Assembly: GCA_030704765.1 (NCBI GenBank)
Contig: JAUYDD010000067.1
Coordinates: 1-34,244 of the forward strand
Direction: 5' to 3'
Length of the DNA stretch: 34,244 nucleotides
Origin: Nanobdellota archaeon
GTDB taxonomy: Archaea > Nanobdellota > Nanobdellia > Pacearchaeales > GW2011-AR1
Shown here piece by piece: positions 7,884 through 34,244 of this stretch. How positions within the stretch are numbered: position 1 is the stretch's first letter; each line of letters starts with the position of its first letter. The position numbers and the translations under genes are program-made. The notes beneath the pieces are model-generated. The model had not been told where the DNA came from and made no database searches. It saw only the letters and a list, made by a program, of their open reading frames with translations.

Positions 7884-8344
7884 TTTTTGTTTTTAAAGAC
7901 GAAAATTTTTATACTAAAAAAATTAATTAGAGTTGTTATAGGAATAATGGATGCTGTTGATATAAGGGGATTTAATCCGATATAATCTACTAAGATTTTT
8001 AATAAAAGATTCATAATGCCTAAGGTGGTAAGATTCACTAAAAAATATTCTATAAGATATCTTACAGATTTGTATTTTGAGTTAAATGTCAACAATCTAT
8101 TGAAAAAAAATCCTACAAATGCCCCTATTACAAAAGCTATTGTAGTAGATAAGAGATAATAGATATTTAAAAAGTGATATAACAGTAAAAATATAATGTA
8201 ATATAATAGTGTTGTTTCTAACCCTATTAAACAAAACTTTAAAAACTGCTTAGTTACTTCTCTTTTCAATAACCTCATAGAAGATATTTCCTTAGAATTA
8301 TTTATAAAGATTGTTGCAATCAAAAAAACTATGTACCACCACAC
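7877..8344 (-). CDS. GtrA family membrane protein (start may be the internal Met at 8278)
   Basis: FLKFCLIGLETTLLYYIIFLLLYHF...FVIGAFVGFFFNRLLTF, typical GtrA pattern. Confidence 0.75.
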   Translation of the reverse strand: MWWYIVFLIATIFINNSKEISSMRLLKREVTKQFLKFCLIGLETTLLYYIIFLLLYHFLNIYYLLSTTIAFVIGAFVGFFFNRLLTFNSKYKSVRYLIEYFLVNLTTLGIMNLLLKILVDYIGLNPLISTASIIPITTLINFFSIKIFVFKNKKW

Positions 8345-8494
8345 CTTTTAAGGCGTTTTGTGGCAGGCACTTGTTTTTTGGATGACTTCAAAATTTTTCA
8401 GAAAATTTTGAGTGTTCCAAAAAACTTCTGAAAGTTTTTTTGGGCTAGAAAAAACTTTTGTGGTTTTTTCTGCACAGAAAATCCAATAAAACCT
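8345..8494. repeat. Palindrome cluster element E3
   Basis: ttttttgga(8374-8382)/tccaaaaaa(8416-8424) enclosing tcaaaatttt(8388-8397)/aaaattttga(8402-8411); aaaaaactt(8419-8427)/aagtttttt(8432-8440); agaaaaaac(8447-8455)/gttttttct(8463-8471). Confidence 0.75.
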
Positions 8495-12617: not shown

Positions 12618-12811
12618 AATAAAGAAATTGCCTAAAAATTAGCAATCCCAACCGACCCAGAGGGTCGAGGTATTTGCTAATTTTTAGGCAATTTCAGTCT
12701 CCAAGAAAAACTTTCAGAAGTTTTTCTGGGCCATTCAAAATCTTCAGATTTTGAAGGTTTCAAATCTGCCGAGGCAGAGCCTCGGGGTATTAAACCCAGA
12801 TTTGAAAATAA
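12618..12811. repeat. Palindrome cluster element E4 between tRNA-Gly and tRNA-Arg
   Basis: Perfect 22-bp IR gaaattgcctaaaaattagcaa(12624-12645)/ttgctaatttttaggcaatttc(12674-12695) enclosing cgaccc/gggtcg; agaaaaactt(12704-12713)/aagtttttct(12718-12727); ttcaaaatct(12734-12743)/agattttgaa(12746-12755); tttcaaatctg(12758-12768)/cagatttgaaa(12797-12807) enclosing ccgaggc/gcctcgg. Confidence 0.85.
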
Positions 12812-34084: not shown

Positions 34085-34244
34085 TAGGATATCAAAAAAA
34101 TTTCCTGAAAAATCGCCTACTCCATCCTGAAGGATGGAGTTTGATCGGCGATTTTTCTGATTCGGAAATTTTTAGGATGCTCGGAAATTGAATGCAAGTA
34201 AACTACCTCATCTTAAAAGATGAGGTTTTCAATTTCCGACATAA
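34085..34244. repeat. Compound nested palindrome element E5
   Basis: TAGGATATC...CGACATAA; aaaaatttcc(34096-34105)/ggaaattttt(34164-34173) enclosing aaaaatcgcc(34108-34117)/ggcgattttt(34147-34156) enclosing ctccatcc(34120-34127)/ggatggag(34132-34139); then cggaaattga(34182-34191)/tcaatttccg(34229-34238) enclosing cctcatctt(34206-34214)/aagatgagg(34217-34225). Confidence 0.88.

Follow-up and report, generated by a model that had tools for sequence, protein, structure and literature searches.

The stretch of DNA that we analyzed, referred to here as the window, is 34,244 nucleotides long and constitutes contig C226 of an archaeal assembly of 1.71 Mb (244 contigs, 87.6% complete). It contains two complete copies, E5 and E2, and two partial or degenerate copies of a hairpin repeat that we designate the class-I element. 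The features concerned are as follows.

34093–34242, + strand: E5, a complete class-I element (C...GACAT) of 150 nt, covariance-model match of 89.5 bits.
34089–34092, + strand: insertion target ATAT on the left flank of E5 (consensus A-H-A-T; in the sequence logo, A at −4 in 71%, not G at −3, A at −2 in 98% and T at −1 in 98%).
34093–34179, + strand: left module of E5, a triple-nested hairpin with AGGATG at its 3' end, delimited by folding and by reading copies in register.
34174–34179, + strand: AGGATG linker, conserved and located 5' of the right palindrome, with an ATG able to pair with the terminal CAT, possibly in the manner of a guide.
34180–34242, + strand: right module of E5, type R1, a double-nested hairpin ending in GACAT.
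34243–34244, + strand: AA after the right end of E5, also the end of the contig; a type-specific 3' dinucleotide, probably target.
2205–2421, + strand: E2, a complete class-I element, consisting of a type A left module with a nested segment and a type R2 right module.
2222–2283 (limits approximate), + strand: second left-end segment of 60 bp (ATCAAAAAAATC...), nested in the left module of E2 and absent from E5.
8321–8415, + strand: degenerate class-I copy (46.7 bits with the covariance model), with more middle hairpin modules up to about 8480.
1–139, + strand: another class-I copy, of which the contig start leaves the right part; a class II hairpin element (ending in GGACAT at 110) is nested in its right palindrome.

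The nested hairpins and the linker AGGATGCTC are present in both E5 and E2, as originally predicted from the sequence, and the true extent of the two elements is 34093–34242 and 2205–2421, respectively. The right outer stem is indeed CGGAAATTGA/TCAATTTCCG in E5 and CGAGAATTGA/TCAATTCTCG in E2, with both arms changed and pairing kept. The two edges were placed less accurately. On the left, TAGGATATC had been taken as a conserved edge, but the flanks of 123 copies agree only in HAT directly before C-AAAAAAA, and the TAGGAT common to E5 and E2 lies outside the element, in the flanks of both copies. On the right, the conserved end is GACAT, whereas the trailing AA varies with the module type and probably belongs to the target. 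The contig comes to its end with E5, and AA is all that is present of the right flank.

More than 100 copies were read in register to obtain the class-I consensus, in which the target A-H-A-T is followed by C-AAAAAAA, a nested left hairpin, the linker TTTTTAGGATG and YTC-stem-hairpin-stem-GACAT. Elements are about 115–160 nt in length, and extra hairpin modules are possible. There are several types of left modules (TTTCC, CAATGGGCC, CAATCCACC and ATTTCCCG), at least five types of right modules (R1–R5) and optional middle modules of two hairpins each between AGGATG and CTC. These left, right and middle modules are found in many combinations, and thus the elements are mosaics. E5 combines left type A with R1, while E2 combines type A, carrying the nested second left end, with R2; the difference in their right stems is therefore one between two right-module types, and the change in both arms is real. 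The complete copies that we read hold only hairpins and have no coding capacity. The internal loop of the right hairpin also contains a loosely conserved AGTAA...TTACGAC motif (alignment columns 85–105).

The element is highly repeated in its host. In the whole 1.71 Mb assembly, the left-module pattern ATCAAAAAAA...TTTTTAGGATG matched 216 times, against 0 matches for a reversed-pattern control, and a similarity search found about 40 places like E5, many of them 97–100% identical, and about 40 like E2. Many matches coincide with a contig boundary, beginning at base 1 or ending on the last base, and many contigs end inside an element; we infer that the repeat, being longer than the assembly k-mer, has broken up the assembly. 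A covariance model built from 26 canonical elements gave matches in 19 of 21 genomes of the same genus and, across the order, in 35 of 140 sampled genomes, most of which belong to the same family and a few to two others. Moreover, scanning 85,488 species genomes with a DNA pattern returned 34 loci, all in Pacearchaeota, Nanoarchaeota or unnamed archaeal MAGs except one in a bin labelled Dojkabacteria, which is possibly a mis-binned contig. The same kind of scan gave no match in viral contigs (IMG/VR). Recent bursts were seen in two genomes, namely the host (G000) and G070, which belongs to another genus and shows an independent burst with 25 nearly identical copies in the stretches read. The original prediction had proposed to search the genome and its relatives with a covariance model for further copies and for covariation, and both were clearly found.

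The ends and the flanks of the copies behave like those of insertions. AT precedes the element in 98–100% of the copies and the base at −3 is almost never G; insertion thus lies 3' of a specific short sequence, A-H-A-T, with a near-invariant AT, as in IS200/IS605 elements. GACAT is followed by two bases that differ with the type of right module: AA for R1, R2 and the copies of G070, TA or CA for R3, and AT for R4, so that AA follows nearly all copies with right modules of the E5 or E2 type and differs in the others. Three empty-site paralogues, which are diverged, suggest that this dinucleotide belongs to the target rather than to the element, and therefore the choice of target may depend on the right module. 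In 102 copies, no correlation was found between left and right flanks and hence no target duplication beyond the shared AT, a measure from which a 2-bp AT duplication would be indistinguishable. Within the same genome, the empty repeat AGAGAATTTTGCA-TAAT^TTCC-AAAATTCTCT (L112; ^ marks the insertion point) can be compared with the filled form AGAGAATTTTGCA-AAAT-element-TACC-AAAATTCTCT (L098, L113 and L142), and a second filled/empty comparison is provided by L059/L143 and L002. These paralogues fit a precise insertion of C...GACAT with nothing lost. The source of the former comparison is a third hairpin repeat (AGAGAATTTTGCA...CAAAATTCTCT...GTTTGAAACGC; L098, L112, L113, L141 and L142), which is an insertion target for class-I elements.

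In this genome, none of 81 copies lies inside an ORF, and the orientations of the neighboring genes (11 ><, 17 >>, 7 << and 10 <>) follow no consistent pattern. Tandem or nested copies were observed as well as modular mosaics. Younger elements are found directly at the right ends of older ones (GACAT^CAAAAAAA), as would be expected, since an insertion at HAT^AA creates a new CAT^AA at its right end. The ends CAAAAAAA and GACAT are not inverted repeats of each other, that is, terminal inverted repeats are absent. Two shortened elements (L314 and L348) have internal deletions by which the two palindromes, left and right, are joined via a shared inner hairpin; these match the core deletions described for PATEs (PMC3119063). 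Among the roles offered by the original prediction, there is strong support for that of a non-autonomous mobile element moved by recognition of its hairpins: near-identical copies occur at unrelated sites, the ends are fixed, a target is preferred and coding capacity is lacking. In two species of the genus (L046 and L080/L161), the same gene has a class-I element immediately upstream, in the same orientation; this gene, with the start MKINITFLGTASAIPTKTR, is possibly that of RNase Z.

Other hairpin repeats occur alongside the class-I element. The class II element (GTCAAGAACC...GGACAT, also found with another right part) resides in the loop-side arm of class-I right palindromes, in the form CTCAT-element-CTTAAAAGATGAGG, at positions 1–110 of the window and at L041, L128, L130 and L135. 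A class IV multi-hairpin repeat (GAAATTGCCTAAAAATTAGCAA...CAGATTTGAAAAT) lies between two tRNA genes at 12624–12809 of the window, with related copies elsewhere in the genome (L139, L029 and L153), and class-I elements are found directly at the class IV right end (GAAAAT^CAAAAAAA). In genomes G012, G005 and G011, a sequence ending in ACAGGCTGTCCCATAATTA or similar is joined inside class-I hairpin loops (L063, L081, L313 and L321), and it is possibly an insertion sequence targeting hairpin loops.

We then consider the pairing itself. Compared with shuffled sequences, the folds of E5 and E2 have z values of −8.0 and −8.2, respectively, and the predicted fold is very stable on either strand. Among the 26 sequences, two-sided changes occur in 21 of 38 pairs, and the covariation score is 0.36 versus 0.118 for shuffled data and at most 0.10 with slid partners. 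With 65 distinct sequences, two-sided changes occur in 33 of 38 pairs and the score is 0.400 versus 0.117, in an alignment that was fitted to the model. The original prediction of selection on folded RNA or single-stranded DNA is thus supported by covariation as far as pairing is concerned, but G-T wobbles are nearly absent, which speaks for DNA and against RNA. If the + strand were read as RNA, G-U should be tolerated far more than A-C, whereas the element stems contain 32 G-T and 52 A-C among 2270 cells; as G-T is not above A-C, Watson-Crick pairing in DNA is argued for. In 25 tRNAs from the same loci, used as a control that is limited by the preference of the tRNA finder itself for standard pairs, the counts were 39 G-T and 0 A-C among 554 cells. 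It seems that the hairpin fold is kept as DNA and not as transcribed RNA.

Two other explanations bear on these data. One is that copies of a structured RNA, transcribed as a 3' UTR, processing signal or terminator, have been spread through the genome for regulation, with which the stable fold and the strong covariation would agree. We regard it as highly improbable, since G-T is not enriched over A-C, neighboring genes occur in all orientation combinations, an Rfam search of the window matched only 5S rRNA and tRNAs and gave no family for the element, and the flanks behave like insertion sites. The corresponding suggestions in the original prediction, a structured 3' UTR, a processing RNA or a terminator, are disfavored on the same grounds. 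The other is that the two-sided stem changes came from palindrome correction (template switching in hairpins) or from exchanges of hairpin modules, rather than from selection for pairing, in an element that is still mobile. One-sided intermediates are very few and two-sided changes many, module mixing is extensive and includes left-right palindrome fusions, and correction would likewise yield arms with Watson-Crick pairs only, so the wobble counts may be read equally with selection or with correction. Nevertheless, copies from different genera have many different stems and still pair, and unpaired features (for example, the bulged T of the left stem and the right hairpin's internal loop) persist too, which makes correction or swapping improbable as a substitute for selection; the two processes can act together.

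Among known systems, the nearest are the PATEs, palindrome-associated transposable elements of Haloquadratum walsbyi and Halanaerobium (PMC3119063, PMC7290912). The class-I element resembles them in being short and gene-less, with palindromes at both termini, no terminal inverted repeats and no target duplication, and also in a short fixed target on the left, core deletions that fuse palindromes and small elements inserted into palindromes (PMC3119063). It is repeated and mobile and too short for a transposase, in keeping with how PATEs are defined. Unlike in PATEs, the class-I hairpins begin at the very ends and are separated by a single conserved AGGATG linker, the target preference reaches the 3' side, modules are freely mixed and the hosts are Pacearchaeota. 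Furthermore, the palindromes of PATEs are related to IS605-type transposons, whereas the ends of the Y1 insertion sequences of this genus differ from the class-I ends and have only the hairpin-AGGATG-...CAT motif in common with them. The class II element nested in class-I right palindromes behaves like SMR-A (A-type small mobile repeats) in the PATE palindromes of Haloquadratum, a likeness in behavior. By this comparison, the class-I element appears to work like a PATE and is a candidate member of that group. The original statement that no named archaeal element has this layout was only partly right, because Haloquadratum PATEs have the same general anatomy (PMC3119063). In the literature searched, we did not find such an element reported for DPANN archaea.

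The REP/BIME/REPIN sequences with TnpA-REP (RAYT) are likewise intergenic palindromes in high copy number that carry a short conserved tag on the 5' side of a hairpin, and the literature links them to HUH enzymes acting on single-stranded DNA (PMC8266576, PMC3116915, PMC3733652). However, the class-I element has no GTAG or CGTC tag, its hairpins are much longer and nested, and the cuts would be at AT rather than CT. We rejected identity with REP/BIME, since the tag is GGATG and a Pfam Y1 search found no RAYT gene linked to the elements. A classical MITE (DDE-type) was rejected as well, for there are neither inverted repeats nor a target duplication.

We consider it probable that E5 is a copy of a non-autonomous, PATE-like Pacearchaeota element, which is moved in trans as folded single-stranded DNA, most likely by a HUH-type transposase. 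With the layout C-AAAAAAA-(left hairpin)-AGGATG-YTC-(right hairpin)-GACAT, the element has no gene and no transposase, and the enzyme must therefore act in trans. This enzyme, most likely of HUH type (IS200/IS605- or REP-like), would recognize both hairpins in single-stranded DNA, cut after AT at both ends and join the element 3' of an H-A-T target, usually then followed by AA, with no target duplication; the AGGATG linker may serve as the guide to the terminal CAT. The resemblance to IS200/IS605 and REP systems, in which HUH enzymes act on folded single-stranded DNA (PMC8266576, PMC3119063), consists of the hairpins kept at the DNA level, the duplication-free insertion 3' of a short sequence and the conserved motif that lies 5' of the right palindrome and can pair with the terminal CAT. 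The wobble counts bear only indirectly on a single-stranded intermediate with hairpin recognition, with which they agree. IS200/IS605 guides are placed 5' of palindromes (PMC8266576), and the linker and the right end of class-I variants change together (GACAT with GGATGYTC, CAGAT with GGATCTG), which is reminiscent of the pairing between guide and cleavage site in that family. The right ends of local IS200 elements also read hairpin-AGGATG-TCAT.

Membership of the IS200/IS605 family (Y1 HUH TnpA) is not borne out, as only hairpins lie between the ends, with no internal tnpA or tnpB, and no Y1 gene with these ends was found. The host genome has three Y1 matches, two of which are intact frames (C134 and C107), while the third, an IS200-type tnpA on C59 (L062), is interrupted by a class-I element in reverse orientation. 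Both burst genomes carry an intact IS200-type TnpA of one subtype, that of G070 being 62% identical to the C134 TnpA. Among the Y1 genes of the host genome and its genus, whose ends were read by eye and by model scan, there was no autonomous element with class-I ends; the Y1 insertion sequences of the genus have other ends (...GAGGATGTCAC/T), with no class-I ends at their flanks. The Pfam Y1 search found no such gene in G005, G007, G010, G012 and G015 (MAGs, 73–87% complete), which hold 9–24 copies each, and these copies may be old. TnpB was found in 3 of the 21 same-genus genomes and not in the host. A long gene-bearing version was sought at unpaired left ends in eight relatives and not found; these ends all proved to be variants, truncations, core deletions, IS insertions or chance matches. 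A counterpoint to the IS200/IS605 reading is that the insertion point is almost strictly followed by AA (or TA), a preference that the local IS200 elements lack and that, to our knowledge, is not a feature of IS200/IS605. The HUH enzyme is accordingly the favorite and not proven.

The same observations bear on a different recombinase (serine IS607-like, DEDD IS110-like or integron-like tyrosine), which would use AT as a 2-bp crossover core while the hairpins have another role. All main variants have the same AT at their two ends, which could equally be such a core or a duplication, the target preference reaches the 3' side and depends on the type of right module, and Y1 genes and the element do not co-occur. 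On the other hand, serine and DEDD recombinases use double-stranded DNA, which leaves the long Watson-Crick-only hairpins unexplained, and from our reading of the right module the attC GTT/AAC core is absent; we think such a recombinase unlikely. It is possible, though doubtful, that the element represents a new superfamily of archaeal hairpin elements, in which the enzyme would not be a canonical IS200/IS605 transposase, one linker would guide both ends, the right module would set the 3' target (HAT^AA versus HAT^TA) and modules would be swapped like cassettes.

The genomes of DPANN archaea are commonly portrayed as very small and streamlined. In contrast to such streamlining, one Pacearchaeota genome holds more than 200 gene-less hairpin copies, which also fragment its assembly. 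PATEs have so far been known from Haloquadratum and Halanaerobium in the literature that we found; a family with PATE anatomy across many genera means that hairpin-directed mobility may be much more general. Moreover, given the covariation data and a defined target, both the rules of recognition and the search for the enzyme become open to direct tests.
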